Source of the DNA: Sphingobium yanoikuyae
GTDB taxonomy: Bacteria; Pseudomonadota; Alphaproteobacteria; Sphingomonadales; Sphingomonadaceae
Assembly: GCF_013001025.1 (NCBI RefSeq)
Contig: NZ_CP053022.1
Coordinates: 1 to 64,000, forward strand
Length of the DNA stretch: 64,000 nucleotides
Reading direction: 5' to 3'
In this document: piece by piece, positions 11,279 to 47,971 of the stretch
How positions within the stretch are numbered: position 1 is the first letter of the stretch
Layout: the number at the start of each line of letters is the position of its first letter
The notes under the pieces: model-generated
What the model was told of the DNA's origin: nothing
Database searches by the model: none
The model's input: the letters and a program-made list of their open reading frames with translations, nothing else
Translations under genes and position numbers: made by a program

Positions 11279-11336
11279 AACGGACGGTCCGTTTGTGAGA
11301 GGCGCGAAGTGGCGGCTGAAAGGCCGCAAAGGGTCG
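11279..11336 (+). repeat. 58-bp dispersed intergenic repeat, copy 1
   Basis: Begins with the dyad GGACGGTCCG and ends GGCTGAAAGGCCGCAAAGGG followed by TCG. It shares the layout of seven other copies in this window (see 18844, 22416, 26187, 36716, 44775, 47067, 47914), all in the same orientation. Confidence 0.75.
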
Positions 11337-11495
11337 CGAGTTGCCTAAGCGTCGAACACCTTGGGCAGGGACTTTGCTGCCGTTCGCCTGCGGCATGTCG
11401 AACGGCGCCTCTCGTCAGAAGCCGACATTCAACGTTCGCCCGACCGGCCTCTGGTTATGTCAGAAGCTTGGCCGTTATACCAAGGATCATAGATG

Positions 11496-11630
11496 ATGAC
11501 TCCCCGCGCCAATGCCGAGGCGATCAAGGCGGCGGGCATTTTCCAGCGCTTTTATGTCTCGACCGGCATCGGCCATGAGTTCCTGACCTAGGGGCCAAAC
11601 CTGTACGAAATGGCGCCGTTGCTGTTTCGC
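11496..11630 (+). pseudogene. C-terminal remnant of a CE1/enterochelin-esterase-like hydrolase
   Basis: About 45 codons resemble the C-terminal end of esterases of the Fes/CE1 type: NAEAIKAAGI, then FYVSTGIGHEFLT with the family's catalytic His in GHE, then NLYEMAPLLFR. A TAG at 11589-11591 interrupts the frame where the family usually has Trp, consistent with a TGG to TAG change. Nothing of the N-terminal catalytic Ser region is present upstream. The remnant sits between the fecR-like gene and the efflux operon, at what looks like a recombination border. Family assignment is from remembered motif similarity and is moderate. Confidence 0.45.
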
Positions 11631-11762
11631 GACCGCACGGGGGCGGGGCATCCGAGGAATTCAATTGCGCGCGTGTTTCATTGCAAATATGCGTAATCGA
11701 AGATCACGCCGTCGCGGGAGCGACCCTCGGCGGCGTGGCAGGCAAAACAGGGGCGGAGCAGG

Positions 11763-13283
11763 GTGCGCAGCACGAAGCGGCAGGATCTACACGTCGCGCA
11801 CCGTTGCTGCAGCGGGCCTGCCGCGCTCGCCCTACTGCTCGCCTCTACCGGCACCGCAGTAGCGCAGGAGGCGCCGCCGCCCCCGCTCAGTTTTCAGGCA
11901 GCGCTCGCCAGGCTCGACAAAGCCTCACCGGGGCTCACCGGCGACGACCATGCCGTCCGCGCCAGCGAGGAAATCGCCGCCGCCACCCGAACGCTGCGCC
12001 GCCCGGTGGTCACCGCCTCGGCGAGCGTGATCGAATATCAGAAGACGCTCTCGGTCGACCTGTCCGAGCCCAAGGCCGATGCGCTGAGCGCCACCAACGG
12101 CTTTCTAGACCAGCTTGGCGGGCAATTCTCCGGCGCGAGCGCGCAGATTGTGGCGCAGGTGACCCAGCGGATCGGCGCGGCCCTGCCCCGGCTGTTTGGC
12201 GCGATTCCCAACACGCTGGAGTTCCAGACGCGCGACACCGTGTTCCGTCCGGCGATCACCGCGGCGATGCCGCTCTATACCGGCGGCGCGATTCCCGCCG
12301 TCCAGAAGGGCGCGGACGCAGCGGTAGGCATCGCCCGGGCCAAGCAGGCGGGCGGGCAGGATCTCTCCCGCGTCAATCTGGTGCGCGCCTATTTCGGCCA
12401 GAAGGTCGCGAGTCAGCTGACCGTATCAACCCGCGAACAGCTCGAAGCCTTCGACCGGCACCTCTCGGACGCGCGCAAGCTGGAAGCGGAAGGCGTGCTC
12501 GCCCATGCCCGGGTGCTGGAGGTGGAGGTCGCGCGCAACACCGCCCAGCGCGCCTTCGAGCATGCCCGCAGCGAGGAGGCGATCGCCACCGATACGCTGG
12601 CGCGGCTGCTCGATCAGCCGCTGGGCGTCACCGCCTCCACTCCGCTGTTCGTCCATTCGGAGCCGCTGCCGCCGCTCCAGCGCTTCCTCGACGGCATCGA
12701 CCAGTCGCCGCGCGCGCAGGGTGCGGATGCCGCCAAGAGCGCAGCGCAGGCCGGGGTGGATCTCGCCAAATCGCGTTATCGCCCCCAGGCCTTCGCCTTC
12801 GGCAGCTACAACGCCAATCGCAACAACGCGCTGCCGACCGAGCCCGACTGGATCGCCGGCGTCTCGCTGCGCATGACCCTGCTCTCCAACTTCGATCGCC
12901 AGAAGGCGCTCTCGGCCGCCCGCGAGAACCAGGCCGCCGCCGCCGATGCCGCCGCGCAAGCGCGCCGCGACGTCGCCGGTGAGATCGTTCGCGCCTGGAA
13001 CATCGCCGAAGCGGCGCGCCGCTCCTTCCTGCTGCTCGATGCCAACCTCGCCGCCGCGCAGGAAAATCTGCGCGTGCAGCAGCTTTCCTTCCGCGAAGGC
13101 GAGGTCGCCTCATCGGCGCTGATCGATGCCGAGGCGGCGCTGTCGACAGTCCGCACCCAGCGGCTCGCCGCCGCCTATGAATATGACCTGGGGTTGATGG
13201 CGCTGCTCGCCGCCAGCCACCGCGTCGACGACTATAGCGACTTCATGGCGCGTGCCGACCGGCACGTGGAGGACCAGCAATGA
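11763..13283 (+). CDS. TolC-family outer-membrane efflux protein
   Basis: Outer-membrane channel component of a tripartite exporter, 506 residues with a GTG start. The N-terminus carries an export signal ending TAVAQ (about 35). The mature protein shows the long alpha-helical, Ala-rich heptads of TolC-type proteins (for example around ARKLEAEGVLAHARVLEVEVAR and AAQENLRVQQLSFREGEVAS), with the second OEP repeat ending near the C-terminus. The start is uncertain because the segment before the signal (RSTKRQDLHVAHRCC) is poor; a recombination point may lie just upstream. The stop overlaps the next ATG by 4 bp. The four-gene operon 11763-16517 is visibly GC-richer than its neighbours. Confidence 0.85.
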   Translation: MRSTKRQDLHVAHRCCSGPAALALLLASTGTAVAQEAPPPPLSFQAALARLDKASPGLTGDDHAVRASEEIAAATRTLRRPVVTASASVIEYQKTLSVDLSEPKADALSATNGFLDQLGGQFSGASAQIVAQVTQRIGAALPRLFGAIPNTLEFQTRDTVFRPAITAAMPLYTGGAIPAVQKGADAAVGIARAKQAGGQDLSRVNLVRAYFGQKVASQLTVSTREQLEAFDRHLSDARKLEAEGVLAHARVLEVEVARNTAQRAFEHARSEEAIATDTLARLLDQPLGVTASTPLFVHSEPLPPLQRFLDGIDQSPRAQGADAAKSAAQAGVDLAKSRYRPQAFAFGSYNANRNNALPTEPDWIAGVSLRMTLLSNFDRQKALSAARENQAAAADAAAQARRDVAGEIVRAWNIAEAARRSFLLLDANLAAAQENLRVQQLSFREGEVASSALIDAEAALSTVRTQRLAAAYEYDLGLMALLAASHRVDDYSDFMARADRHVEDQQ

Positions 13284-14284
13284 CCGACGAGACCGCGGCT
13301 CCGCCGCGCCGCAAGCCGCCCATCCTCGCGATCGTGCTCGGCATCGCGGTGCTGGTGCTGATCGTCGGCGGGCTGTGGCTCGCCAACCGGCCCGCACCCG
13401 AGCAGCTGCAGGGCATGGTCGATGCCGACGAGGTCAATGTCGCCACCAAGGCGCTCGCCCGCGTCGAGACTCTGGTGGCCGAGGAAGGCCAGCGCGTCCG
13501 CGCCGGCACGCTGCTCGCGACGCTGTCGAGCCCGGAGATCGCCGGCGGCAAGGCGCAAGCGCAGGGCGCGGTGGACGCCGCCCGCGCGATCGCCTCGGAA
13601 ACCAATGAGGGCGTGCGGCAGGAGGACATCGCCTCGTTGCGCTCCACTTGGCAGGCGGCGCAGGCGGCAGCCGACCTCGCCGCGGTGACCAGCCGGCGCA
13701 CCGCGAACCTTTATGCGCAGGGCGTGGTCGCGGCGCAGCGGCGCGACGAGGCGGCGGCAGCGCGCGACGCCAGCGCCAAGCAGGCCGAGGCCGCGCGGCA
13801 ACAGTATCTCAAAGCGCTCGCCGGCGCACGCCCGCAGAACAAGCAGGCGGCCAACGCCCAGGTCCGCATCGCCGAGGCGGCGCTGCAGACCGCCACCGCG
13901 CTCGGCAGCGAGACCCAGCTGGTCTCGCCGATCAACGGCGAGGTTTCGCGCAAGCTTGTGCAGCCCGGCGAAGTCGTCAGCCCGGTGATCCCCGCCTATC
14001 AGGTGCTCGACATCGACCATAGCTGGGTAGCGCTCACCGTGCGCGAGGATCGCTTCAAGTGGATCGCGATGGGCAAGCGGCTGCACGGCCACATCCCCGC
14101 GCTCGGCCGCGACGGCGATTTCGCGGTCTATCATATCGCCCCGCGCGGCGACTTCGCGACGTGGCGCGCAACGCGGCAGGCTTCGGGCTATGACGTCCGC
14201 GCCTTCGAGGTGAAGCTGCGCCCGGTTACGGCGATCCCTGGCCTGCGCCCCGGCATGAGCGTGCTGTTCGACTGGCCGCAATGA
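13280..14284 (+). CDS. HlyD-family membrane fusion protein
   Basis: Periplasmic adaptor linking inner-membrane permeases to the TolC-like channel, 334 residues. It has one N-terminal membrane anchor (ILAIVLGIAVLVLIVGGLWL, about 15-34), a biotinyl/lipoyl-like hybrid region with the first half at VDADEVNVATKALARVETLV, a long coiled-coil hairpin (about 85-205, rich in Ala, Gln and Arg), the second lipoyl half at LVSPINGEVSRKLVQPGEVV, and a beta-barrel region. The layout matches YbhG/YhiI-type adaptors that work with ABC-2 permeases. It overlaps both neighbours by 4 bp (ATGA). Confidence 0.88.
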   Translation: MTDETAAPPRRKPPILAIVLGIAVLVLIVGGLWLANRPAPEQLQGMVDADEVNVATKALARVETLVAEEGQRVRAGTLLATLSSPEIAGGKAQAQGAVDAARAIASETNEGVRQEDIASLRSTWQAAQAAADLAAVTSRRTANLYAQGVVAAQRRDEAAAARDASAKQAEAARQQYLKALAGARPQNKQAANAQVRIAEAALQTATALGSETQLVSPINGEVSRKLVQPGEVVSPVIPAYQVLDIDHSWVALTVREDRFKWIAMGKRLHGHIPALGRDGDFAVYHIAPRGDFATWRATRQASGYDVRAFEVKLRPVTAIPGLRPGMSVLFDWPQ

Positions 14285-15408
14285 GCGCCTTCGGCCACGC
14301 CTTGGGGGCGGAGCTGCGCCATCTGGCGCGGGACCGCTGGGACCTGGCCGGGCTGACGCTGATCCCCGCGCTTCTGCTGTTTCTGATCGGTGCGATGTTC
14401 TGGCAGGGATCGATGCGGCGGCTGCCGATCGTGGTGATTGACGACGATCGCAGCTCGGCGAGCCGCGATATCCTGCGCGCGATCGACGCGGCGCCGCTGG
14501 TCCATATCGTCGCGATGCGCGCCACCGAGGCGGAGGCAGTGGAGGAAGTGCGGCGCGGCCATGCCAATGGCTTCGTCCACCTGCCCAAGGATCTCGGCGC
14601 GGGGCTTGCCCGCCACCGCACGCCGGTAATCCGCATCCTATACAATGCCAGCTTCCTATCTTCCGGCTCGCAGGCGGCGAGCGGTGCGGAGAGCGCGGTG
14701 CAGGCCGCCGCCGCGTCGCTGGTGGTGGACCAGCTTTCCGGCCACGCCCTGCCCCCGGATCCGACGCGGCGCTTCGCCGTCGAGGCGGTGCCGCTCAACA
14801 ACGCCGCGTCGAGCTTCGAGTGGTTCCTCGGCACGCTGATCTATCCGGCGGTGCTGCATCTGGTCGCGGCGGTCACCTCCGCGATGGCGCTGGGCCGGGA
14901 ACTGGAGGGGCGGTCGCTCGGCGGCTGGGCGGCGCGCAGCGGCACGATCGTGCCCGCACTGTTCGGCAAGCTGCTGCCGTATGTCGGAGCCGCAAGCCTG
15001 TGGGGCATCGCCTGGCTGCTGTTCGTGACGCTGGGGCGCGGCTGGCGGGTGGAGGGCAGCGTAGCGGCGATCGTCGCGGGGCAGACGCTCTTCTATCTCG
15101 GCACCGCCGCGATTTCCGCGCTGCTCGTCGCAGCCACGCGCGAAACCGCCACGGCGCTGTCGGTCTGCGCGGTCTATGCGGGTTCGGCGTTAGCCTATGC
15201 GGGCGCCACCCTGCCGCTCAACGGCGGCAGCGGCTTCGCGCGCTTCTGGAGTGAGGTGCTGCCCCTCACCCATTACCTCGCGCTCCAGACCGGGCAGCTG
15301 GGCGGACAGGATGTCGCCACCATCTTCCCGCCGATTCTGGCACTGCTCGCCTATGTGCTGGTGCCGGGCGCGCTCGCCTGGCTGCTGATCCGGCGGCAGG
15401 CGCGATGA
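14281..15408 (+). CDS. ABC-2 type transporter permease, first of pair
   Basis: Inner-membrane permease, 375 residues, of the ABC2_membrane_3 type. One N-terminal membrane helix (about 25-42) is followed by a large extracytoplasmic domain (about 45-190, starting PIVVIDDDRSSASRDI), then five or six helices from about 185 to the C-terminus, including the region PLTHYLALQTGQLGGQDV typical of this permease class. It overlaps its neighbours by 4 bp on both sides. Such permeases normally pair with a cytoplasmic ATPase, which is absent here. Substrate cannot be inferred; relatives export drugs and hydrophobic compounds. Confidence 0.85.
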   Translation: MSAFGHALGAELRHLARDRWDLAGLTLIPALLLFLIGAMFWQGSMRRLPIVVIDDDRSSASRDILRAIDAAPLVHIVAMRATEAEAVEEVRRGHANGFVHLPKDLGAGLARHRTPVIRILYNASFLSSGSQAASGAESAVQAAAASLVVDQLSGHALPPDPTRRFAVEAVPLNNAASSFEWFLGTLIYPAVLHLVAAVTSAMALGRELEGRSLGGWAARSGTIVPALFGKLLPYVGAASLWGIAWLLFVTLGRGWRVEGSVAAIVAGQTLFYLGTAAISALLVAATRETATALSVCAVYAGSALAYAGATLPLNGGSGFARFWSEVLPLTHYLALQTGQLGGQDVATIFPPILALLAYVLVPGALAWLLIRRQAR

Positions 15409-16517
15409 GTTTCGCCGCCGCCTTCCGCGCCACCTGGGCGACGGTGCTGACCTCCCGCACCCTGCTCAGCACGATGCTGCTCGCGGTGGTGCTCTATGCC
15501 TTCTACTATCCGGCGCCCTACAGCCAGGAAGTCGCTCAGCAACTGCCGGTGGTGCTGGTCGATGAGGACGGCAGCGCGCTCAGCCGCGAGCTGGTCCGCA
15601 ACCTCGAAGCCACGCGCGCCGTGATCGTGGCCGAACATGCACCGAGCGTAGCCGAGGCTCAGGCGCAGCTCCGCGCGGGCAAGGTGGACGGCGTGGTGCT
15701 GATCGCCCGCGGACTGCAACGCCAGCTGCGTACCGGCGCGCCGGGGGCCGGGATCGCGGTATGGGTCAATGCCTCGTACCTCCTGCGCGCCAGCACGATC
15801 GGCGAGGCGGTGACCGAGGTGCTGCGCGATCTCGCCGTCGAGAAGCTGGACGTGCTGGGCCAGGCCGTGCGCACCGGGCCGCCGGTCACCATCGTCCGCG
15901 AGCCGATGTTCAACCCGACCGCGGGCTACAAGGGCTATGTCTTCCCCGCCGTGACCATCGTCATCATCCAGCAGACCCTGCTGTTCGGCGTCGCTACCTT
16001 CGTCGGCGGGCGGCGGCGCGATGGGCGCTGGCGGATGGGGCATGGCGAATATCTCGGCACGTGGGCAGCGTTCACATCGGTTGGGCTGCTGACCTGCCTG
16101 TTCCTGTTCGGCTTCATCTTCTGGGTGCAGGGCATCCCGCACGACGAGAATGTCGCGGGCATGCTGCTCGCCGCGCCGTTGTTGGCGGCCTCGGTCGCCG
16201 GGCTGGGGCTGTGGCTGGGCAGCTATTTCGACCGGTCTGAGCGGGCGATGATGATCCTCGCGCCCACCTCCGCGCCCTTCTTCTTCCTCTCGGGCACTGC
16301 CTGGCCGCTCGACCAGATGCCGGGCTTCGTCCGCGCGGTGGCGAAGCTGATCCCCTCGACCAGCGGCGTGCAAGTATTCGTGCCGCTCAACCAGATGCAC
16401 GCCAGCCTCGCCGACGTGGCGCCGGGGGTGCTCACGCTCCTCGGCCTTGCGCTCCTCTATGGCGGGCTAGGCTGGTGGCGGATCACCGGGCTGCGTCAGA
16501 AGCTGAAGCTGAGCTAG
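15405..16517 (+). CDS. ABC-2 type transporter permease, second of pair
   Basis: Paralogue of the preceding permease, 370 residues, with the same architecture: N-terminal helix (LLSTMLLAVVLYAFYYPAPY), a periplasmic domain starting LPVVLVDEDGSALSREL, then a C-terminal block of about five helices with FFFLSGTAWPLDQMP and LIPSTSGVQVFVPLNQM. The pair would form a heterodimeric membrane domain coupled to the HlyD and TolC proteins encoded upstream. This is the last gene of the operon; no nucleotide-binding protein follows, and the next 380 bases hold only debris. Either an ATPase encoded elsewhere serves this pump or the operon is incomplete. Confidence 0.85.
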   Translation: MSFAAAFRATWATVLTSRTLLSTMLLAVVLYAFYYPAPYSQEVAQQLPVVLVDEDGSALSRELVRNLEATRAVIVAEHAPSVAEAQAQLRAGKVDGVVLIARGLQRQLRTGAPGAGIAVWVNASYLLRASTIGEAVTEVLRDLAVEKLDVLGQAVRTGPPVTIVREPMFNPTAGYKGYVFPAVTIVIIQQTLLFGVATFVGGRRRDGRWRMGHGEYLGTWAAFTSVGLLTCLFLFGFIFWVQGIPHDENVAGMLLAAPLLAASVAGLGLWLGSYFDRSERAMMILAPTSAPFFFLSGTAWPLDQMPGFVRAVAKLIPSTSGVQVFVPLNQMHASLADVAPGVLTLLGLALLYGGLGWWRITGLRQKLKLS

Positions 16518-16630
16518 CCGGCGACGAAGTCCGAACTCGCATAGCCTGCCTTGGCCGACGCCGGCCCAGCGGCGAGATGCTCGTAGCGGCCGGTCAGCGA
16601 CAGCCGCGGGGTGAGTGACCAAACCTCCTG
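16514..16630 (-). pseudogene. Outer-membrane protein C-terminal fragment (alginate-export-like?)
   Basis: The minus strand encodes about 38 codons reading WSLTPRLSLTGRYEHLAAGP and on to GYASSDFVAG, then a TAG that shares bases with the stop of the permease gene. Alternating hydrophobic strands and the LTPRLSLTGRYEHL pattern are like the last strands of alginate-export or similar beta-barrel proteins. No start or upstream part is present. It appears to be a scrap cut off by the event that brought in the efflux operon. Family identity is a guess. Confidence 0.35.
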
Positions 16631-16894
16631 CAGCCGAGGGACATCGGAGGTCCGAGTGTGGCGGACTTCACTCTTTATACCGAAGGCGATCAACCACGAT
16701 GCGGAAGGCTGTGGTTGCCTAGGGCCGCTTTCGGCCCGAGCGGTCGTTCAAAGTGACTGGTGGGAACGGCTTGAGCTGGTCGACTGACGCCGCCCCCTCC
16801 TGACGTGTCGGAAGGCACTTTCGGGAAATGCTGTTCGTCCGCCCCCGGAAGGTTGAGCATGCCAAAATTCAAAAGCGCCCACTCGAGCGGATTA

Positions 16895-18562: not shown

Positions 18563-19060
18563 CGCCGGGGACCTCCCAGCTGACATCATGCCGGATATGA
18601 GTTAATGCCTGTCGAACTCCGGCTGTGACCGAATCTCTAGCGCCCATTCTGCACTCATTGCCCTCGGCATAGATCTCAGCTCTCGTCAAAATAGCGTGAA
18701 GCCTGATGCCCTCGTCTCAAAACCGCTTGTGCCCCCCTATCTATTCGACTCCTATCAACGTCGCGACAGACCGGTTTCGACGTGACCGGACATTCATATT
18801 GCCGCGTAGGAAAGGCGAGATTTGGTCGCGACCTGCCGGTTACCGGACAGTCCGGACCTGGGGATGCGAAATTGGTGCCTGAATGGCGACAAAGGGTCGG
18901 CAGCGACCCCGCGTTAATCCCTGCCGCCGCTTTGAACGGGAGCCCTTCTCAAAGCCAGCCATTTTCGCAAGTCTGGCATCTGCCAGACAGAATGGCACTG
19001 GCAATGAGAATGAATCCCTTTGACAGCATAGTAGGTGGGCATGACGCCCACCCACTTGTT
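18563..19060. other. Intergenic region without a recognisable gene
   Basis: About 500 bases between the transposase and the hydrolase operon. It holds one copy of the 58-bp dispersed repeat (18844-18899). No frame here gave recognisable protein similarity, and no clear insertion-sequence end was found. Confidence 0.6.
18844..18899 (+). repeat. 58-bp dispersed intergenic repeat, copy 2
   Basis: Starts with the dyad CGGACAGTCCGG and ends GCCTGAATGGCGACAAAGGG followed by TCG. Same spacing between the two blocks as in the other copies. Confidence 0.75.
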
Positions 19061-20134: not shown

Positions 20135-20150
20135 GGCTGGGCTCTCCTTG

Positions 20151-21350: not shown

Positions 21351-21431
21351 GGTCTACCTCGTAGTTCTCGGATGAATTTCTCCTCCACTATCTAGCCCGC
21401 GCGTCGATCCATAATTAGAGGTCTAAATCTT

Positions 21432-21442
21432 CTGATAATCAG
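21432..21442. promoter_or_regulatory. Candidate LysR-type operator
   Basis: CTGATAATCAG is a perfect 11-bp palindrome with the T-N-A form of LysR boxes. It sits 15 bases before the LysR start, in the 107-bp divergent region shared with the MFS gene. Confidence 0.35.
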
Positions 21443-21457
21443 TAGGGATTTTAATTA

Positions 21458-22381: not shown

Positions 22382-22415
22382 TCGTGGAGCTGCGCGTTGC
22401 AGGGCGACCAAGGAA

Positions 22416-22473: not shown

Positions 22474-22579
22474 AAATTTCACGCCGGTCCATCCGGGGCC
22501 GAGATTGCCATTTCGCCAGCATGACCGCCGCCCACGGCCGCTACGATAATCGCGAACCTCGACCTCCCCGGCGGTCAGA

Positions 22580-24408: not shown

Positions 24409-24413
24409 GGAGT

Positions 24414-36770: not shown

Positions 36771-36846
36771 TTGTCGTCCTTGGCAAGCATACAAGATATC
36801 GGCGCGCGGTAAGGGTACTTCCATCAAACGCCAGTGGGTGAGCACG

Positions 36847-37965: not shown

Positions 37966-37975
37966 AATCTCCTGA

Positions 37976-39607: not shown

Positions 39608-39636
39608 GATGATGCCTTTTCGATGAGATCAGAAAG

Positions 39637-39665
39637 GGACGGAGCGGCCCAAGGCCGCTCCGTCC
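39637..39665 (-). terminator. Perfect intercistronic hairpin between TonB receptor and phoD
   Basis: GGACGGAGCGGCC (39637-39649) and GGCCGCTCCGTCC (39653-39665) form a perfect 13-bp stem with a 3-base loop, starting 12 bases after the receptor stop. On the transcript it is followed by CUUUCU only, so read-through into phoD is expected. Confidence 0.7.
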
Positions 39666-39677
39666 AGTGGGGGAGGA

Positions 39678-42600
39678 TCAGAAGCTGCCCTTGATGCCGA
39701 TGTTCCACATCGAGCCGTAAATGCTGTACTGGCGCACCCGGCTTTCGACGTTGGAATAGATGACGTCCGGCGCATTGAAGATATTGCGGCCGGCGACGTT
39801 CAGCTCGAAATTGGGGCTCAGCTTGTAGCTGAAGCTCACATTCCATAGCTGGCGATCGGTATGATAAAGGACGCCATTGTTGGCGGTGGTCGGCGTGGCG
39901 CTCAATGCACTCACCCGATATCGCGACTGCCAGTTACCCGTCAGCTGGAAGTCGAACGGCCCATAGCTGTAGCGCAGGCCCCAGTTGGCCGATTTTTCCG
40001 GCGTGTTCACACGCTCCGCATCGGGGAAGAGACGGGTGAAGGAACCGCGCAGGCCCAGCCCCTTGAGGATGCCCGGCAGGAAGGTCAGCTGCTGGTCATA
40101 TTCGAAGATCAGCCCCTCATTGGTGCTGGTCCCCGGAAGATTCTGCGCGCTTCGGAATGTGTAGCCGGCATATTCATCAGGATCGAAGCCGACGGCGGCG
40201 GGATCGACCTCGATCCCGGTGACCTGCATGTCCTTCATGTCGAGGCGATAATAGGACAGACCGATGATGCCTGACGGCTCCAGATAATATTGAAGGCTGG
40301 CGAAATATTTGGTCGAATGTTCGGGCTTTAGCAGGGGATTGGGTACATTGACGATCTGTGTATCGTCATTGACCGACACCACGCCGCCCAGATTGCCATA
40401 GTCGGGCCGCAGGATCGACTGGCTGAAGGCGATCTGGCCGACCAGACGGCGGCTGAAATCATATTTCATGCCCCCGCTCAGGAACCAGTCGTCATATTCG
40501 CCATGGCGGGTTGAATAGGTACCGCCATTATATTGGTAGAGCAGCCCCTCGATCGTGTTGGTCTTGTAGCCTGCCGCCTCGACCTCGCTGGTCGGACGGA
40601 TATTGGCGACCAGCGCGCCAGTCCTGGTCTTCTCGTAGCGCAGGCCGAGGTCAAAGGTCGCCTTGCCAATGCGCGCCTCCGCCTCGACATAGGCGGCGTA
40701 GATATCTTCCTTGACCCGCTTGTTGTTGTCGAGGTCGCGCTTCAGATTGCCGACCGTATCGGCAACGAAATATTCCGGATGCGCCTTGTAGATGTCGTAC
40801 ATCGCGTAATTATTGTCGGCGCGCCAATTCTGGTCGTTGAGGTTACCAGCGTTGAAGCCGATGATCTCGAACTGGTAGCGATTGGTCCAGGGAATGACCG
40901 CGGCTGGGTCCTTTTGGCTCAGATCGCCGTTCGGGCCGACATATTGGAACTGGTCATAAGACCCCTCATTGGTGCGCCAGTCATTCACCCGCGCGCCGGC
41001 CCCCGCCATCAGCGTCAGCGGCACGTCGCCCACGAACAGCTTGCGCTTGATGTCCAGATTGCCGCCATACATTTCATTGCGGGCGTCCGATTCAGCCGTG
41101 CGAATATTGTTGCCGATGTCATCGTCACGGTTGAAGCTGGTCGGATCGCTCCATGACCGACCGGCTGTCTGCTGTAGCGTCCAGGCGTTCGAGCTTTCCG
41201 ACTCCCGGTCGAGCGTGAAGCCGATACGCGTCAGCCAGCTGTCGGTGCGCTGGAAGAAGCCTTTGGAATTGTCGCGGAAATTGAATTCCGAACTGGAATA
41301 GCTGCCGCGCAACGCGACTTCCCAATCGTCATTCTTATATTCGAGCTTGGGCGCCAGCAGCATTGCCGGGGTGCCTGCATAGCGATGCGAATATTGGGTG
41401 TGTAGCCGGGTGTTAGTGCCGTTGGGATTGACGACGATATGGGTACCGGTCGAATCCGGCGTGGCATAGGATTTGGTCGTCGTGCCGAAAATCAAATAGG
41501 TATATTGGTTGAAATATTCGACCTCGTAGAAAGAATAGCTGCCACGCAGCGACAGCGCGAGTTCATCGGAGAATTTATAATCGACCGATAGGTTGGCGGC
41601 GGTACGGCTGGTTTTCTTCGGGCCAGGACGCCACATGACCTGATAGGGGATGACCCGGCCGTCGGCGAGATAGGACCAGTCGGTCTGGACGCGATCCTGC
41701 TGGACATAATTGGCATTGTAGCTGGCGCTCAGCGCGACGCCGAGCCTCCCATCCAGAAACACGTCGCCATAGTTGAAGCTGACCGACGGATAGATGCGGG
41801 CATGTTTGTCATTATCGGGCAGATAGATTTCGCCGATCCCGGCGTCCGAGGTGCCGACCCCGCCAACCTGGAAGCGCAGTTGGCGCTTCTTCAGCTGAAA
41901 CGCATATTTGCTGCGCAGGTTGATCGCGCCGCCAGGCGCGTCGGCATCCATGCGGGCGGTCAGCGTGTTGTTCAGCTCGATCGACTCAATGCCGGTGATC
42001 GACATCTGCTCGAAACTGTTCTGCCGGCCATTATTGTTGTTGGACGTCGCCGTCGCCATGCGGGCGCCGTCGGTGGTGAAGGTCGAATATTTGGGGTCGA
42101 GACCACCAATGCGGACCGCCGTGGCATCGACCTCGGTATAGTCGAGCGAGATGCCGGGCATCTGCTTCATGAATTCGCCGACATCGCCCATGGTCAGCAG
42201 GCCGTAATTGTCGGCGGCCACCACGGTCTTGGCATTGGTGGCAGCGCGGCGTTCCATGATCGCGGCCGCCTGCCCCTCGCGCCGGGCGGTGACGGTGATG
42301 GCCGAGCCGTCGTCGGTGGAAGAGCCCGCAAAGGTCGGTGCACGCAACGCCACGTCCAGCGTCGCGACTTCACGCGGGCTGACAGTGGCGATCAGTCTTT
42401 CGGTCTGGAGGCCGGTATATTTGACGACGATCGTCGCTTCACCGGGCGGAATGTTGGACAAACGAAATTCGCCATTATCCTCGGAATAGACGGTGATCGG
42501 CGTGCCTTCGACGCGAATTTCCGCGTTGCGCAGATATTCGCCGGTGACCGTGTTGAACACGCGGCCGCGCACCATGCCATTGCCGACGCTGGCTTCCGGG

Positions 42601-42905
42601 CGCGCCGAGCGCAGGGTGATGACATTGCCGTCGTCCGATCCAACCCGCAGCGGCGTGCCTGCGATCAGGCGGCGCAACGCTTCGCGCACGTCCATCCGCC
42701 CCTTGATTGCGGGCGTGTTGATGCCGGCCAGATCACGGGCCGGGGCTACGATCTGCACTTGTGCCTGTCGGGCCAGTTCGGGGATGGCACGGACGGCGGG
42801 CTGGGCGGGTATGTCGAAGAGGCGTTCCTGCGCATGGGCCGGCACGGCCACGGCAAGCGCAACGACAGAAGCCCCACAAGTGAGGAGAGAATGACGCGAA
42901 TACAT
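39678..42905 (-). CDS. TonB-dependent receptor with STN and carboxypeptidase-regulatory-like domains
   Basis: Outer-membrane transporter of 1075 residues. A signal peptide (about 1-25, ending PAHAQ) precedes an STN domain (about 30-100, LFDIPAQPAVRAIPELARQA) for contact with FecR. A carboxypeptidase-D-type beta-sandwich follows (about 110-190, GMVRGRVFNTVTGEYLRNAE, NIPPGEATIVVKYTG), then the plug (MPGISLDYTEVDATAVRIGG) and a barrel ending in WNIGIKGSF with terminal Phe. This STN + CPD + TonB layout is known from signalling receptors of Sphingomonadales and Xanthomonadales. It lies between a FecI/FecR-like pair and phoD, so an organophosphate or its organic moiety is a reasonable substrate guess. 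Confidence 0.9.
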   Translation of the reverse strand: MYSRHSLLTCGASVVALAVAVPAHAQERLFDIPAQPAVRAIPELARQAQVQIVAPARDLAGINTPAIKGRMDVREALRRLIAGTPLRVGSDDGNVITLRSARPEASVGNGMVRGRVFNTVTGEYLRNAEIRVEGTPITVYSEDNGEFRLSNIPPGEATIVVKYTGLQTERLIATVSPREVATLDVALRAPTFAGSSTDDGSAITVTARREGQAAAIMERRAATNAKTVVAADNYGLLTMGDVGEFMKQMPGISLDYTEVDATAVRIGGLDPKYSTFTTDGARMATATSNNNNGRQNSFEQMSITGIESIELNNTLTARMDADAPGGAINLRSKYAFQLKKRQLRFQVGGVGTSDAGIGEIYLPDNDKHARIYPSVSFNYGDVFLDGRLGVALSASYNANYVQQDRVQTDWSYLADGRVIPYQVMWRPGPKKTSRTAANLSVDYKFSDELALSLRGSYSFYEVEYFNQYTYLIFGTTTKSYATPDSTGTHIVVNPNGTNTRLHTQYSHRYAGTPAMLLAPKLEYKNDDWEVALRGSYSSSEFNFRDNSKGFFQRTDSWLTRIGFTLDRESESSNAWTLQQTAGRSWSDPTSFNRDDDIGNNIRTAESDARNEMYGGNLDIKRKLFVGDVPLTLMAGAGARVNDWRTNEGSYDQFQYVGPNGDLSQKDPAAVIPWTNRYQFEIIGFNAGNLNDQNWRADNNYAMYDIYKAHPEYFVADTVGNLKRDLDNNKRVKEDIYAAYVEAEARIGKATFDLGLRYEKTRTGALVANIRPTSEVEAAGYKTNTIEGLLYQYNGGTYSTRHGEYDDWFLSGGMKYDFSRRLVGQIAFSQSILRPDYGNLGGVVSVNDDTQIVNVPNPLLKPEHSTKYFASLQYYLEPSGIIGLSYYRLDMKDMQVTGIEVDPAAVGFDPDEYAGYTFRSAQNLPGTSTNEGLIFEYDQQLTFLPGILKGLGLRGSFTRLFPDAERVNTPEKSANWGLRYSYGPFDFQLTGNWQSRYRVSALSATPTTANNGVLYHTDRQLWNVSFSYKLSPNFELNVAGRNIFNAPDVIYSNVESRVRQYSIYGSMWNIGIKGSF

Positions 42906-42988
42906 TAGCTGGTAGCCCCCTGCTGGCCGCGCGCTGCACGGCGTTCGACCCTAAGAGGTGGGAGGCCGGCGGTTCCGCTAATGCGGGG

Positions 42989-44002
42989 TCAATTTTTTTT
43001 CGACTGCGCTGTGCGGCTCAGGATGAGGTCATGGTCCTGCCGGACCAGGCGAGCATCGAAGATGGTCGAAATGGCGCGACTGAAGCCAGCGGGATCATTG
43101 GCTGTAAACAGACCCGTTACAGGTTCGCGCGCCAGTGCCGCGTCCGGTATAAGGATGCGGGTTTCGCTGTAACGGGCAAAGGCATTGGCCGCCTGCTGCA
43201 AGGTCTCGCCCTCGAAGGCCAGTTTCCCGTCGCGCCAGGCCAGCTCCCGGTTGATGCGCTCGGGCGAGATCGGTTCGGGCCGTTCCGCGACGAACAGGCT
43301 GGTTGCCGCATTGGCCATGACCATGTGGGTATTGCCAGCCAGGGCAACGACCTGACCGCTCATGGGATTGACCGCAGGCAGTTCGACCAGTCCCTGATGC
43401 ACCAATATGTCGACAGGCGCCTTGGCCAGCTTGCGGACGCGAAAGCCGGCCTGCGCTGTGCGCAATCGGCGACCGCCGACCTCGACAATGAATGGGCGCC
43501 GCTCGTCGCGTGCGACCGAGAAATAGACTTCGCCATCTAGCAGCGAGACCAGACGTTCCTTTTCACCATAGAGGATCCGGATGCGGCTGTCGGTATTCAG
43601 CAGGGCGGTCGACCCGTCCTCCAGCGGCACCAGTCGCATCTCGCCGCGGCCGGTGCGGATTTCCGCGCCCGATGCTGGCATGCCGACGGTCAATGCGGCC
43701 ATGCCCGCCATGGCGGCCAGCGCACCACCGCCGATGCCGAGCAAATGTCGTCGCGACAGGCCGCGCTGTTTTTTCGGCTCGAACACACGAGGGTCGAAAT
43801 CTGGGCCCAGCGCCTGCGCGGACTCACTCATCAACGACAATGCCTGGGCACGCAGCAGGGCACCCTTATGGCGCGGATCGGCGGCCAGCCATTGCTTGAG
43901 TTCGGCATCCTGCGCCGCAGACAGCGCGCCACGATCCAGCCGCGCCGCCCAATCGGACGCGGTTTGGTCAATGCTGCGACTGTCTTCTTGTCCGGCCATC
44001 AA
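42989..44002 (-). CDS. FecR-family anti-sigma/sigma-regulator
   Basis: Inner-membrane signalling partner of 337 residues. It has the N-terminal DUF4880-like sigma-binding region (ASDWAARLDRGALSAAQDAE), one membrane span (HLLGIGGGALAAMAGMAALTV, about 85-105), a FecR domain (GRGEMRLVPLEDGSTALLNT to HQGLVELPA) and the C-terminal region that meets STN domains (VTGLFTANDPAGFSRAIS). Its start overlaps the end of the sigma gene by 35 bp. It lies between the sigma and receptor genes on one strand, so here the whole trio is collinear, unlike the divergent arrangement at 6.6-11.2 kb. Confidence 0.9.
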   Translation of the reverse strand: MMAGQEDSRSIDQTASDWAARLDRGALSAAQDAELKQWLAADPRHKGALLRAQALSLMSESAQALGPDFDPRVFEPKKQRGLSRRHLLGIGGGALAAMAGMAALTVGMPASGAEIRTGRGEMRLVPLEDGSTALLNTDSRIRILYGEKERLVSLLDGEVYFSVARDERRPFIVEVGGRRLRTAQAGFRVRKLAKAPVDILVHQGLVELPAVNPMSGQVVALAGNTHMVMANAATSLFVAERPEPISPERINRELAWRDGKLAFEGETLQQAANAFARYSETRILIPDAALAREPVTGLFTANDPAGFSRAISTIFDARLVRQDHDLILSRTAQSKKN

Positions 44003-44570
44003 CTGCGCGCGTCTCCGTTGTCACATCCCTAGAGGTTTGGGGCAGCGTCTTTCCACCACGACCGAACCAGTCAATCAAAAATCGGATGCCGCGCGAAATA
44101 TGCGTCTCGACCGTATTTTCCGATATACCCATCTGCGCCGCGATTGCGCGCTGAGGCAGGCCCTCGACCCGGCGCAGGATGAACGCCTCACGCGTCTTGA
44201 GCGGCATGGCCGCGATCGCGCAGGCCAGCTGGCGCAATTCATCCCGGTCGATCGCCGTCTGCTCGGGTGATGCGGTATCGTCAGGGTGGTCCAGATGGTC
44301 AAGATTGTCGACCGCGTGGATGGGAACGATCCGCGCACGGCGGACATGGCGGGTTACCACAGACCGGGCTACCTGGAACAGATAGGCCCGGGGATAGGCG
44401 ATGGTGTCGACCCGCTCCATCTCCGCGAAGATGCTGTAGGACTCCTGAATGATATCGTCGGGTTCGAGGCCGCCCAATGGCCGACGCGCAAGCCAGCCGC
44501 GCAAGGCAGGCTCATGCGGCAAGATATTGCGCAGCAGCCAGCGCGCTCTTTCCCTGTCCGTTCCGCTCAT
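43968..44570 (-). CDS. ECF sigma factor, FecI-like
   Basis: Sigma factor of 200 residues. Region 2 is LEPDDIIQESYSIFAEMERV and YPRAYLFQVARSVVTRHVRR; region 4 is MPLKTREAFILRRVEGLPQR with HTH AIAAQMGISENTVETHISRG. The start at MSGTDRER was preferred because upstream codons lack sigma-factor character. First gene of the collinear set sigma, fecR-like, TonB receptor, phoD, propeller. It is similar to the sigma factor at 9652 (same ILPHE...RGWLARR opening), pointing to a shared ancestor for both signalling systems. Confidence 0.9.
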   Translation of the reverse strand: MSGTDRERARWLLRNILPHEPALRGWLARRPLGGLEPDDIIQESYSIFAEMERVDTIAYPRAYLFQVARSVVTRHVRRARIVPIHAVDNLDHLDHPDDTASPEQTAIDRDELRQLACAIAAMPLKTREAFILRRVEGLPQRAIAAQMGISENTVETHISRGIRFLIDWFGRGGKTLPQTSRDVTTETRAVDGRTRRQSQH

Positions 44571-45074
44571 CCCAGTTCCGCGACCGTTTATTATGACGAA
44601 GTGTCGATTCTGGGGGTGGCTAGAGGGAAAATGTGACAAACAGACTGCGGGGCCGACATCTTCGAAACGTGCGACCCATCTTTTCGAGGGCGGTGCGTTC
44701 AAACTGCCAGCATCCTTGGGTGCCCCCTTTCAGCTTACACTGCGGGAGAAGCACGGCCTTAATCGAATCTAACAAGCAGACCGTCAGCACTTGGCGATTG
44801 AAAATCGACCTCCGAACGGCAGCAATGGGTCGACAGCCGGGATGAATACTACGCGCCCATCTAAGCCATTCGCCCGCAAAATTACTATGCTTGGAAACGG
44901 ACCGTCAATTTTTAAGGACAAATCCCTCCCCGGGTGCCCGGCTGTCTGTCCGGTACGCGCTCGACCAGTTCGACACGACAATGCGCAGCAAAGCACATCA
45001 CGACGCTGGCGACAGCCGCAGCCACACCTCATGATCTTGTGGGAACACCGGGCGCAGAATCAAGGCCTGCCCCT
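44571..45074. other. Intergenic region without a recognisable gene
   Basis: About 500 bases between the sigma factor start and the acetyltransferase stop. Contains repeat copy 6 (44775-44832). No protein similarity was recognised in any frame; the sigma-gene promoter must lie near 44571-44700 but was not identified. Confidence 0.55.
44775..44832 (+). repeat. 58-bp dispersed intergenic repeat, copy 6
   Basis: Starts AGCAGACCGTCAGCACTTGG and ends CTCCGAACGGCAGCAATGGG followed by TCG. Confidence 0.7.
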
Positions 45075-45749
45075 TCACGCCTCGTTACCCTGGAACTCTT
45101 CGAGGCGACGGCCCTGACCGCCTTCGTCATCAAAGTTGGCAGGGTCGAGCCACGCCTGCAACCCTGCCGACACGCCGGGCCACTCGGTATCGGTAATCGC
45201 GAACCAGGCAGTGTCACGGTTCTCGCCCTTCACCACCATATGCTGACGGAAAACGCCCTCGAAGATGAACCCGAAACGCAGCGCCGCGCGCTTCGATGGT
45301 TGATTGCGATCGTCGCACTTCCATTCGAGCCGACGATAGCCGAGTTGATCAAAGGCGTAAGACGCGAACAGATAGAAGGCTTCCGTTGCTGCGCGTGTGC
45401 GGGCCAGCGCCGGCCCCCACAATATGTTGCCGATTTCGATGACGCCGTGAGTGGTGTCGATCCGCATCAAGGATTGTCGACCTTCCGCGCGTCCGGTTGC
45501 TTTGTCGACCACGGCAAAGAACAGGGGATCGGTGGAAGCGGCAGATCGCTCGATCCAGTCCGCAAACTCCTTCTCGTCGATGGGCGGTTGATCGAACAGA
45601 TAACGAAACCGTTCTTCCGCCCCCGCTTCAAGCGCCGACCGGAGCAGATCCTTGCTATGCTTCGGTTCCAGCGGTTCAAGCCGTGCATAACGCCCGTCGA
45701 GAGCGACACTACGAGGACGTGGTGCGCCGTTCCAATCAGCCATACTCAT
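45075..45749 (-). CDS. GNAT-family N-acetyltransferase, RimJ/RimL type
   Basis: Soluble acetyltransferase of 224 residues. It has the RimJ/RimL pattern: ARLEPLEPKHSKDLLRSALE (strand 1/helix 1), FFAVVDKATGRAEGRQSLMR, IEIGNILWGPALARTRAATE (acetyl-CoA loop region with modified Q/RxxGxG/A) and YRRLEWKCDDRNQPSKRAAL, then FGFIFEGVFRQHMVVKGENR. Transfers an acetyl group to an amine, target unknown. It stands alone, divergent from a broken LysR gene, at the start of a degraded accessory stretch. Confidence 0.85.
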   Translation of the reverse strand: MSMADWNGAPRPRSVALDGRYARLEPLEPKHSKDLLRSALEAGAEERFRYLFDQPPIDEKEFADWIERSAASTDPLFFAVVDKATGRAEGRQSLMRIDTTHGVIEIGNILWGPALARTRAATEAFYLFASYAFDQLGYRRLEWKCDDRNQPSKRAALRFGFIFEGVFRQHMVVKGENRDTAWFAITDTEWPGVSAGLQAWLDPANFDDEGGQGRRLEEFQGNEA

Positions 45750-45874
45750 ATCGCTCTCCGCATCAGACGGGAGATACCCGTGTTGTTCGCCATAAAGTTC
45801 GTTGCCTACCGTGACCGAGCACTACGATCCAATCGACTGTTGGACGGTCTTATAAATCCAATTTATCAAGAGCC

Positions 45875-46402
45875 ATGTCTCGGAATCATCCCCCATTGCT
45901 CGCAATCAGGGCGTTCGAAGCGATCTCTCGCTGCGGTACGTTCACTGCGGCGGCTCATGAGTTGGGGACCACGCAGGCCGCGATCAGCAATCAGATCAAG
46001 GTGCTGGAGGGGCGCCTGGGATTGCGGCTCTTTGAGCGTCATGGCCGACGGGCCATGTTGACAGATGACGCCCGGCGCGTAGCCGCTCGTCTCTGCAAGG
46101 CATTCGATGAGATCGAAGCGGCTTTCACGGAGCTGCGTGAAAGTGAAGAGGCGGTGTTGCGGATCACGGCCAGCAACACCTTCACCGAACGCCTGCTGGC
46201 GCGCCACATCGACAGCTTTCAGGCAGTGCACCCCGAACTTGAAATTCGACTCAATGTCGGCAACCGCTACGTCGACTTCGGCACCGAGCAAGTCGACGTG
46301 GCGATCCGCTGGGGTGGAGGCGTGTGGCCTGGCTTAGCATCCGATCACCTGCTTAAACTCGACTTTACGCCAATGTGCGCGCCAAGGATTGGGTTTCCGT
46401 GA
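45875..46402 (+). pseudogene. LysR-family regulator (GcvA-like), C-terminally truncated
   Basis: The first 170 or so residues of a GcvA-type LysR protein: LLAIRAFEAISRCGTFTAAA, HTH HELGTTQAAISNQIKVLEGR, and the start of the effector domain (VLRITASNTFTERLLARHID) up to LDFTPMCAPR. The frame then ends four codons later in sequence that belongs to another, oppositely oriented LysR remnant. About 120 residues are missing. The product would bind DNA but lack most of its ligand domain. Confidence 0.85.
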
Positions 46403-46815
46403 ACAGATGCCGCGCATGGGCAACGGATACATCCGGCTTGAACCCATGGATGATGAGGTCGAGCTTACCGGTCGCCAGTCTTTTGAACATATCGTCGGTG
46501 TAGCCGGATATTTCGACCTGACATCCCGGCGCGGTCTTGCCGATCGATGGCAGTATGGGAAAAAGGACCGACAGCATGCCATAGTCCGTCGCAGCGATGG
46601 AAAATCGGCGTTCCAGTGTTGCTGGATCGAAATCCGCGGGTTGCAACACAGCCGCCGTTATCGCCATCCACTCTTCGAGAGGTTTGGCTAATTCCATGCC
46701 GCGTTGAGTCAGCGCCATGCCTCGACTGGTCCGGACCAGAAGCGGATCGGATAGAAGCTTACGCAGCTCACTCAAAGCTCGGCTGACTGTCGGCTGGCTT
46801 AGCCCCGGCGCATGG
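46365..46815 (-). pseudogene. LysR-family regulator remnant, truncated at both ends
   Basis: The minus strand encodes the second half of an HTH (GLSQPTVSRALSELRKLLSD, then PLLVRTSRGMALTQRGMELA) and the first part of an effector domain (RFSIAATDYGMLSVLFPILP to FKPDVSVAHARHLFTET). The N-terminal 25-30 residues are missing beyond about 46815, and the C-terminal half is lost near 46380, where the frame meets the other LysR remnant head-on. It belongs to a different LysR subgroup from its partner. Confidence 0.8.
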
Positions 46816-47289
46816 CTGTCCGACTGACACTCTGCGTCTGAAGTAAAACAGAAAGAGTTGGCAACAAATTGATATCAAACGCCTTCATTGCTGACTCCGG
46901 CTTTGCGAATAAGCCGCGTTAGCGCTGAAAGGTTGGTGTTTCAATGGAGCGGAAGGGTGGCTGTACTGCACTATGTTCGACTTAAAATTGGAAACGGCAT
47001 TTTCCACAATCATCCGCTCACGCCTGCTTGCCTTCTTGCTGCCGCTTCTGGCATCGAGTTATGGAAAGCAGACGGACCGCTCCTGGGACCCCAAATTTGG
47101 CGTCTGAGCGCCCGCAAAGGGGCGGGCGCAGAAGTGCCTCTACGTGCCGGCCGCGAGCGTGGCCGCCAGTCACCAAATTCGCCGTTCCATGTATGATCCG
47201 GTCAAAATGAGCCTACGGTCCGCTTTCCCCTCTGGAGCACGTTCGCCTGCGGCGCCCGGCGGATTCGAAGATCGATCACGACACCAACG
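46816..47289. other. Intergenic region without a recognisable gene
   Basis: About 470 bases between LysR debris and the toxin-antitoxin pair. It holds repeat copy 7 (47067-47124). No coding similarity recognised. Confidence 0.55.
47067..47124 (+). repeat. 58-bp dispersed intergenic repeat, copy 7
   Basis: Starts AGCAGACGGACCGCTCCTGG and ends GTCTGAGCGCCCGCAAAGGG followed by GCG. The end block pairs CGCCC with GGGCG, a compensated version of the CGACC/GGTCG stem of copy 3. Confidence 0.8.
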
Positions 47290-47346
47290 GCATTTTGTAG
47301 TAACGATAAGCGATTGACTGCTAATCAAATCGTAACTACAAAATGC
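47290..47346. promoter_or_regulatory. Long inverted repeat at the brnT start, probable brnTA operator/promoter
   Basis: GCATTTTGTAGTAACGAT (47290-47307) recurs inverted as ATCGTAACTACAAAATGC (47329-47346), matching at 17 of 18 positions, with a 21-base spacer. A TTGACT -35 (47314-47319) lies in the spacer, and TACAAA (47337-47342) at 17-bp spacing could be the -10. The right arm ends one base before the brnT ATG. BrnA antitoxins repress their own operon, so this is the expected binding site. Confidence 0.65.
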
Positions 47347-47347
47347 T

Positions 47348-47593
47348 ATGATCATCGTATGGGATGAGCCGAAGCGGCAAGCGAACCTCGTCAAGCACGG
47401 GATCGACTTTGCCGATGTGGGCGAAGGGTTCTTCCTCTCCGCCCTGGTCATGCCTGCGAAGGATGGACGCTTTGCCGCCATCGGTGAGATGAACGGTAAG
47501 ATCACGGTGATTTTCGCTGTGCTGGGCACCGAAGGCGTCTCGATCATCTCGGCCCGCCCGGCCAGCATTACGGAACGGAGGCTCTTGCCATGA
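47348..47593 (+). CDS. brnT: BrnT toxin (RelE-like ribonuclease)
   Basis: Toxin of a type II toxin-antitoxin system, 81 residues. The BrnT signature is clear: WDEPKRQANLVKHGIDFADV, FSALVMPAK-like strand, then IGEMNGKITVIFAVLGTEGV and ISARPASITERRL. Family members fold like RelE and cleave RNA to stop growth. The gene precedes its antitoxin and overlaps it by 4 bp, the usual brnTA order. No ribosome-binding site is visible because the inverted repeat abuts the start codon; the message may be leaderless. Confidence 0.92.
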   Translation: MIIVWDEPKRQANLVKHGIDFADVGEGFFLSALVMPAKDGRFAAIGEMNGKITVIFAVLGTEGVSIISARPASITERRLLP

Positions 47594-47877
47594 CCTACCC
47601 GAAAAACGCCGCTCTCGGTTACACCAAGGCCGATATGGATGCGGTCAGCAATAATCCTGAATGGACTGCTGAGGATTTCGCCAGGGCCAAGCCTTTCGCT
47701 GAGGCCTTCCCGGATCTCGCAAAGTCGATTCGTGCACGCGGTCCGCAGAAAGCCCCGAAAAAGGTTAGTACCACACTGCGCCTTTCGCCCGAGGTGATCG
47801 AGCATTTCAAATCCGGCGGCCCGGGTTGGCAGTCACGGATCGATGCAGCACTCAAGGATTGGGTGGCTGCACACTGA
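47590..47877 (+). CDS. brnA: BrnA antitoxin
   Basis: Antitoxin of 95 residues that neutralises BrnT and binds the operon promoter. The C-terminal half has the BrnA ribbon-helix-helix-like pattern: KVSTTLRLSPEVIEHFKSGG, then PGWQSRIDAALKDWVAAH. The N-terminal half (TAEDFARAKPFAEAFPDLAK) is the toxin-binding region. Start overlaps brnT by 4 bp. Located in a gene-poor accessory stretch beside a Fic protein. Confidence 0.9.
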   Translation: MTYPKNAALGYTKADMDAVSNNPEWTAEDFARAKPFAEAFPDLAKSIRARGPQKAPKKVSTTLRLSPEVIEHFKSGGPGWQSRIDAALKDWVAAH

Positions 47878-47913
47878 GGCCGACAGCGCCCATCCGCCCG
47901 GAAGGGCGAAGAC

Positions 47914-47971
47914 AAGCTGCCGGACCGCTCCTGGAGAGCTGAGCACGACCGCTCACGTCGGTATAGGGTCG
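47914..47971 (+). repeat. 58-bp dispersed intergenic repeat, copy 8
   Basis: Starts AGCTGCCGGACCGCTCCTGG, close to copy 7, and ends CGTCGGTATAGGGTCG. Lies between convergent brnA and fic genes. Confidence 0.65.

Follow-up and report, generated by a model that had tools for sequence, protein, structure and literature searches.

The window analysed here is a 64,000-nucleotide stretch of the Sphingobium yanoikuyae genome (assembly GCF_013001025.1), namely bases 1–64000 of contig NZ_CP053022.1, called C2 below, which is 371,560 bp long in a genome of 5.94 Mb and four contigs. An ungapped 62-nucleotide (nt) repeat occurs there in eight good copies, all on the + strand (starts 3473, 11275, 18838, 22412, 26183, 36709, 44771 and 47063), and these copies are candidate borders of mobile gene cassettes. 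Leave-one-out position weight matrix (PWM) scores of the eight ranged from 37 to 66 bits, while any non-member position, on either strand, reached at most 12.7 bits. The conserved part measures 62–63 bp, rather than the 58 bp given in an earlier note on this DNA, and has a sharp right edge directly after GGGTCG with weak signal outside; in an alignment of 130 sites, the usual terminal sequence is AAAGGGTCG. The sites and intervals of the window are listed below, each with its evidence (G, C and L denote genomes, contigs and loci; A-type sites belong to the 62-nt family; ORF, open reading frame).

3473..3534, + strand: A-type site, left border of M1 (PWM family; border to S. yanoikuyae pKN1 and G014)
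3535..11336, + strand: cassette M1, with two S10 peptidases, TonB receptor, extracytoplasmic function (ECF) sigma factor, FecR and site (unit in pKN1 and G014:C18; Pfam)
11275..11336, + strand: 62-bp site of M1 (PWM family; pKN1 identity stops at its last base)
11337..18899, + strand: interval M2, with OEP-HlyD-ABC2-ABC2 export operon, B-type site, DDE transposase and A-type site (Pfam; G013:C174 match)
16739..16782, + strand: B-type site, a 45-nt sister motif ending CTGGTCG (C2 and G013 diverge right after)
18838..18899, + strand: 62-bp site, with GGTCG 71 bp before its end, the signature of a 72-bp unit (PWM family)
18900..22473, + strand: interval M3, with alpha/beta hydrolase (S15-like), major facilitator superfamily transporter, LysR regulator and site (gene map, Pfam)
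22412..22473, + strand: 62-bp site (PWM family)
22474..26244, + strand: interval M4, with flavin mononucleotide (FMN) oxidoreductase, DJ-1/PfpI, a gene of no assigned family, LysR regulator and site (gene map, Pfam)
26183..26244, + strand: 62-bp site with the core variant GGGGCG (PWM family)
26245..36770, + strand: cassette M5, with GH43, MGH1-like glycoside hydrolase (GH), GH10, GH28-like, TonB receptor, LacI regulator and site (G021:C1 match; Pfam)
36709..36770, + strand: 62-bp site of M5, overlapping the 3′ end of the LacI ORF (G021 identity stops at its last base)
36771..44832, + strand: cassette M6, with a gene of no assigned family, PhoD phosphatase, TonB/carboxypeptidase-regulatory receptor, FecR, ECF sigma factor and site (G013:C174 match; Pfam)
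44771..44832, + strand: 62-bp site of M6 (PWM family)
44833..47124, + strand: interval M7, with GNAT acetyltransferase, LysR-type pieces and site (gene map, Pfam)
47063..47124, + strand: 62-bp site (PWM family)
47125..47971, + strand: interval M8 (847 bp), with BrnT-BrnA toxin–antitoxin pair and decayed site (Pfam)
47910..47971, + strand: decayed site, the eighth copy of the earlier note (6.1 bits; left border of the segment common to the genome's own C1)
47972..49401, − strand: left part of M9, with Fic-family gene (95.9% identical to C1 3911648–3913082; Pfam)

The earlier note had described eight intergenic copies of a dispersed repeat in a single orientation. The repeat and its orientation were borne out, with seven of those copies forming the ungapped family; the good copy at 3473–3534 had been overlooked, and the one at 47914 is decayed (E = 7.2; 10.0 bits over model positions 6–31 with an 85-copy model). 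The decayed copy is nonetheless a real border, as the segment that the window shares with its own C1 (window 47966–49401) begins five bases before its end. Nor are all of the copies confined to intergenic DNA, since the site at 36709–36770 covers the final 38 nt of the LacI ORF (35682–36746). A scan of the full C2 found no additional strong copies outside 3–47 kb, the next-best copy there (289620–289671, minus strand) scoring 11.4 bits, or 20.6 bits with the 85-copy model. A weak minus-strand match (11 bits) at 44855–44912 adjoins the good + site at 44771 and is perhaps a decayed inverted site.

Several intervals recur in other genomes of the genus with their borders at sites. In a megablast comparison with plasmids, window 3529–11336 matched S. 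yanoikuyae pKN1 as one piece at 94.4% identity, spanning the final six bases of one site through the final base of the next, and this M1 unit was also found in G014:C18 (88% identity). M5 is 93.6% identical to G021:C1 459511–470038, where it lies directly behind a recombinase gene and its site, and M6 is 96.8% identical to a segment of G013:C174, with both borders at GGGTCG. Part of M2 (11368–16792) is 99.7% identical to the same G013 contig. For M1, M5 and M6, similarity breaks at the terminal GGGTCG of the site. In all six shared cassettes checked base by base, the right-hand site was carried along, its second half agreeing at 22 of 31 positions in one pair and at 28–31 in the rest, and the next 40 bp matched at 6–12 positions. 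On the evidence of these comparisons M1, M5 and M6 move as units, and by analogy the other intervals of the window may do so as well.

Site borders were also frequent when all shared segments were considered. Overall, 66 of 619 free ends lay at the 3′ end of a site in both copies (−40 to +12 bp), compared with 0.03 on average, and never more than 2, in 200 trials of random placement; a first version of the count gave 65 of 543, with a random mean of 0.06 and again at most 2. Left out of the end and pair counts were shared segments shorter than 250 bp or below 75% identity, segment ends no more than 40 bp from the end of a stretch, one near-identical stretch (G005:C11) and any short locus that repeated a longer stretch. 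At L099 (G099:C48), the M1 module is present with no recognised right-hand site and a decayed left site (18.7 bits), which could be a source locus or else a cassette fixed long ago.

The order of cassettes differs between genomes. In G013, nothing but a B-type site and a 72-bp unit separates M2 from the M6 that follows, where the window has M3–M5. What follows a 0.86-kb cassette also varies, being a VapBC cassette in G008 (Sphingobium sp. TKS) and a broken recombinase copy in G010. The same VapBC cassette precedes a broken recombinase copy in G012 and is present too in S. herbicidovorans pSHV1. Variation within the core is informative about the point of exchange. The left border reads GGGGCG or GGGTCG for M5 and GGGTCG or GGGCCG for a G022 cassette, which suggests that core base 4 stays with the resident site, and the end of the M1 site reads GGGTCG or GGGTGT depending on the copy, which suggests that the last two bases come from the new downstream neighbour. 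These three informative cases would place the crossover between the T and the C of GGGTCG.

Sites within arrays point almost uniformly in one direction. The earlier note put the chance of a shared orientation at 1 in 128, which is correct for eight copies. Across 82 stretches (1.99 Mb), adjacent site pairs within 20 kb had the same orientation in 109 of 111 cases (100 of 101 in an earlier version of the comparison), and on a 1.06-Mb contig of G130, which belongs to another genus, a 91-kb array carried 22 of 22 sites above 8 bits on one strand. Such uniformity is at least what would be expected if every cassette bears its site at one fixed end. The interval statistics drop loci under 7 kb, leaving 104 of the 109 same-direction pairs; according to a simple purpose-made gene finder, these 104 intervals have a median length of 2.9 kb (range, 72 bp to 19.5 kb) and 49 of them hold at least three predicted genes. 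An interval frequently corresponds to a whole operon with its own regulator. Gene direction relative to the site was random (168 same, 196 opposite; P = 0.16). The earlier note had suggested orientation relative to replication. An origin and a terminus permit two strand switches, but the sites listed on G007:C1 (5.06 Mb) switch four times, twice within about 50–60 kb (1310068 (−) to 1362709 (+) and 3554926 (−) to 3614608 (+)), and a strict replication-strand rule was therefore rejected.

Site counts across genomes are lower bounds, since only part of the candidates was scored (131–150 of about 200–1250 per genome in the scans of the window's own genome and of 41 genomes, and 18 per genome in the family scan). 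With 150 of 1166 candidates scored, the genome containing the window has at least 15 matches at E ≤ 0.001, 14 of them on the + strand. When the 41 genomes were searched with a sequence-only model built from the eight copies, 24 gave a match; these were 24 of the 25 that belong to the genus, and none of the 16 that belong to other families of the order matched. Under a second model, at least 14 of 298 genomes of the family had sites at E ≤ 1e-6. Copies at E ≤ 1 were present in 23 of 72,556 plasmid records (15 from Sphingobium, 7 from Novosphingobium and 1 from Nitrobacter hamburgensis), and a strict DNA pattern searched across genome contigs returned only 5 stretches. The Nitrobacter record, X14 plasmid 2 (L113 12222–12428), comes from another bacterial order and has an A-type site adjoining a recombinase fragment; the site lies between ABC-three-component/AbiH defence-like genes and a helicase.

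A covarying hairpin under selection, which the earlier note had proposed, did not hold up. RNAalifold returned one 5-bp helix with a single both-sides change for eight copies and 0 pairs for 130 aligned sites, and the top mutual-information pairs among 85 copies formed no helix. Fold z-scores for 80 of 158 sites were −0.37 (top strand) and −0.29 (bottom strand), compared with −0.09 for 80 control 62-mers. No Rfam match in the window passed the gathering threshold; relaxing the search to E values as high as 10 gave four sub-threshold matches, all of them elsewhere in the window. With no Rfam match, no consensus structure in 130 sites and folding hardly better than in controls, the hairpin and structured-RNA candidates were rejected. 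A 13-bp dyad, GCnGACnGTCnGC, slightly exceeded 500 shuffles at two of six pairs (0.92 versus a maximum of 0.90; 0.95 versus 0.94). Its one-base centre means that it cannot be a hairpin, and it may instead be a protein-binding dyad. The transposon-like origin raised in the same note, next to the idea of a chromosome-organising element, survives in spirit, in that the sites appear to delimit mobile cassettes, although selection on a hairpin finds no support.

When 413 array proteins were clustered, the top recurrent family (four stretches) was a tyrosine recombinase of 210 amino acids (aa), in which PF00589 covers residues 43–197, so that the protein consists of a catalytic domain without a core-binding domain. 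It fell far below the cut-offs of the XerA, XerC and XerD models and scored 20.3 bits against IntI (cut-off, 265) and 24.4 bits against NF007370, ‘tyrosine-type DNA invertase’ (cut-off, 221). Residues R61, K89, H158, R161, H184 and Y193, which we take to be catalytic, are invariant in 24 aligned copies. Among 30 recombinase loci fetched by protein similarity (14 of subgroup A and 16 of subgroup B), a site above 8 bits lay within 1.5 kb at 14 of 14 A-subgroup loci but only 4 of 16 B-subgroup loci (Fisher P = 2e-5). The site was within about 110 bp at 11 of the 14 A loci and in the same direction at 13, with its end about 50–65 bp upstream of the start codon at eight loci and its start about 60–80 bp past the stop at three. 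In the genome containing the window, the A recombinase persists only as a fragment (C1:1928371–1928598), so the array may now be still, and the sister B enzyme is intact (C1:3845522–3846142). An intact A gene is present in, for example, the strain of L122, deposited as Novosphingobium sp. Chol11, and in Sphingobium sp. TomTYG65. In the near flanks of the 30 loci, where no search aimed at them was made, neither an attI nor a common promoter was noticed. Relatives of the small recombinase occur in 437 plasmid records at E ≤ 1e-20, and those at L220, L224, L225, L227 and L228 adjoin toxin–antitoxin, restriction, chromate or RNA-repair genes, one of them on an E. coli plasmid; clear site arrays were not found in the flanks of distant relatives from Sinorhizobium, Shewanella, Cupriavidus, Phaeobacter, Methylocystis and Asticcacaulis.

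B-subgroup recombinases are preceded by a site of their own, the 45-nt B-type site (consensus AAGCTGTCGTTCACATCGACGTCGCTGAACGACTTGATCTGGTCG, with arms GnCGTTC and GAACGnC), which ends CTGGTCG and is exemplified by window 16739–16782, where it closes the M2 export operon, and by L190 2212–2256 and L222 7706–7750. A model of it gave only 21 hits in the scanned stretches. Two sites exactly 72 bp apart were seen at two places in G130 and at one place each in a plasmid of Novosphingobium sp. RL4 and in G024. The spacing is not limited to such pairs: of 185 distinct sites, 39 are preceded by a GGTCG located 71–73 bp before their own end, against a single case for the 32 remaining distances between 66 and 100 bp. 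A GAACGnC-type block precedes 27 of the 39, compared with 342 of 1847 (18.5%) of all GGTCG in C2. These spacings point to a 72-bp unit, made of a 10-nt leader and a site, that may be able to move alone into other GGTCG cores; the alternative is a fixed composite site.

The sites themselves, their near-uniform orientation, the exact shared units, the changed cassette order and the similarity break at GGGTCG can all be seen in the sequence, and they argue for mobile, site-bounded, operon-sized cassettes that are integron-like without being integrons, a reading to which we assign a probability of roughly 90%. A cassette would consist of CG, any genes, often a whole operon with its regulator, and a 62-bp site whose last bases are GGGT. 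Cassettes would be excised or inserted when two sites recombine at their GGGTCG cores, in which case the sites of an array would point alike whatever the direction of the genes. We also think it likely that the repeats are the one-sided recombination sites of a gene-cassette system with the 210-aa recombinase as its candidate enzyme; the A-subgroup proteins of roughly this size, with a catalytic domain only and encoded beside sites, would carry out a reaction that passes through a circular cassette. A fuller proposal, which we advance tentatively and at somewhat below even odds, is a second, integron-independent cassette system, in which a catalytic-domain-only tyrosine recombinase, its own gene lying among the cassettes, shuffles entire operons between double-stranded sites of conserved sequence, and a 72-bp ‘empty cassette’ moves alone into the GGTCG cores of B-type sites. 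Insertion of such a unit would give neighbouring genes a site and thereby turn them into cassettes.

A number of observations weigh against mobile cassettes or against the candidate enzyme. The 82 stretches behind the orientation count were mostly fetched because they bear sites, and two adjacent pairs, in L096 and G011, have opposite orientations. In G013, the left border of M2 falls 31 bp within the interval, away from GGGTCG and from any site. The 66 site-bound ends are not all independent, as M1 occurs in three places, and the other 553 of 619 free ends are not at sites in both copies, indicating that much shared DNA moves or breaks otherwise. The recombinase gene stands alone between two sites in one case (G130), with a good site on only one side elsewhere. 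Recombinase matches at E ≤ 1e-15 were found in 63 of 94 genus genomes, many being just fragments, and were absent from the remaining 31 even though sites are frequent. The AlphaFold2 model of the recombinase is poor (mean predicted local distance difference test score, 60.8), and the right-hand half of the recombination site, at the cassette start, is weakly conserved, which is unusual for a tyrosine recombinase.

The same cassette architecture could instead be the work of an HUH nuclease (an IS91/ISCR-like transposase or a conjugative relaxase) that nicks the 3′ end of an oriT-like site and carries DNA to the next site. In its favour, recognition sequence and break point are arranged as in HUH systems, with the whole of the former to one side of the latter; plasmid records hold many of the sites, and a tyrosine recombinase and IS91-family pair is present in site-bearing regions of S. 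herbicidovorans pSHV1 and G003. However, IS91-type genes occurred in only three scanned stretches, one of them without sites, whereas the 210-aa recombinase leads the recurrent families and adjoins the sites; we regard an HUH mechanism as unlikely and rejected IS91-linked mobilisation as the main route on the scarcity of these genes. Segment swapping by ordinary homologous recombination between dispersed repeats would account for the site sequence shared at every border, but the window copies are just 65–77% identical to the reference copy over 62 bp, and borders fall at the site 3′ end, with the right-hand site carried in six of six cases, rather than being spread within the site. This placement led us to reject homologous recombination, which we hold to be very improbable.

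Two further explanations start from the repeats themselves. A selfish element resembling a miniature inverted-repeat transposable element (MITE), or a functional intergenic element such as a terminator, regulator or structured RNA, would be short, intergenic and present in many copies, with its orientation due to chance; the lack of an Rfam match leaves room for a new family, and the dyad does slightly exceed shuffles at two of six pairs. Set against this are the absence of a consensus fold, the mixed gene directions within intervals, the exact shared units, which such elements would not lead one to expect, and the cassette borders, which contradict it, leaving this option scarcely credible. 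True integrons whose attC sites were missed would explain the near-uniform orientation, the changed order and the toxin–antitoxin cassettes. In integrons, the attC R′ box GTTRRRY lies at the crossover and attC folds as a single-stranded hairpin, whereas the sites described here are conserved in sequence, have no consensus hairpin and mostly end AAAGGGTCG. Moreover, an integron integrase (TIGR02249) scored above the cut-off in only 1 of 94 genus genomes (G021:C2 402348–403292, L107; the listed sites of G021 lie on C1). This rarity and the low IntI score of the 210-aa enzyme led us to reject a classical integron, to which we attach only a minimal probability.

To our knowledge, no well-known system other than integrons stores genes as an array of shuffled cassettes. 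The likeness to them extends to arrays in which each cassette has a single site at a fixed end, a nearly uniform orientation, crossover at the site 3′ end, toxin–antitoxin cassettes and arrays with no recombinase nearby. Unlike integrons, whose cassettes are mostly single-gene, promoterless and read in one direction, the intervals here can be as large as an operon, bring their own regulators and contain genes in both directions; what the sites conserve is their sequence, with no consensus fold, and the recombinase itself sits among the cassettes. FimB and FimE are likewise catalytic-domain-only proteins of about 200 aa, but here the sites are direct repeats bounding cassettes, not the ends of one inverting element, and the NF007370 score is far below its cut-off. 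The pdif modules of Acinetobacter plasmids resemble the present arrays in that toxin–antitoxin-type modules are moved by site-specific recombination (XerC/XerD) at short sites; pdif sites, however, are about 28 bp and opposite around the module, as against 62 bp and 109 of 111 neighbouring pairs direct. IS91/ISCR elements share the carriage of adjacent DNA from a one-sided end, but differ by the rarity of IS91-type genes in the scanned stretches. Repetitive extragenic palindromic sequences (REP), bacterial interspersed mosaic elements (BIME) and MITEs are also short, dispersed and intergenic, whereas the present sites have no consensus hairpin, are oriented array by array and border exactly shared gene blocks.

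Tyrosine recombinases have been divided into simple enzymes, with core-binding and catalytic domains, and complex enzymes with an extra arm-binding domain, and an integron-like subgroup has been named (PMC8138268). A cassette system with a catalytic-domain-only enzyme did not appear in the consulted passages of that paper, nor did we find a description of such a system in searches of an open-access full-text library, a scope that leaves out most subscription papers and all bioRxiv preprints. If the cassette reading is true, a system that moves complete, regulated operons (for glycan use, export, phosphatase plus TonB uptake, toxin–antitoxin functions and defence) would explain the assembly of sphingomonad replicons from functional blocks, and transferred operons could be delimited by sequence alone. 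It would offer a natural test of how cassettes gain sites and would further suggest that so small a recombinase, lacking a core-binding domain, may run a cassette economy, and the 72-bp unit, if read correctly, would answer how cassettes are born.

A DDE_3 transposase lies inside M2 (16895–18460) and is absent in the G013 copy of this interval. In M7, LysR-type matches fall on two overlapping ORFs of opposite strands (45896–46402 and 46365–46718), and the regulator looks broken or miscalled. At the left end of the window, an IS21-like istA fragment (1–1630) abuts a heavy-metal P-type ATPase ORF (1621–3285) that is seemingly shortened, and near-identical copies of the fragment are found at C2 110114–111743 and on C1.

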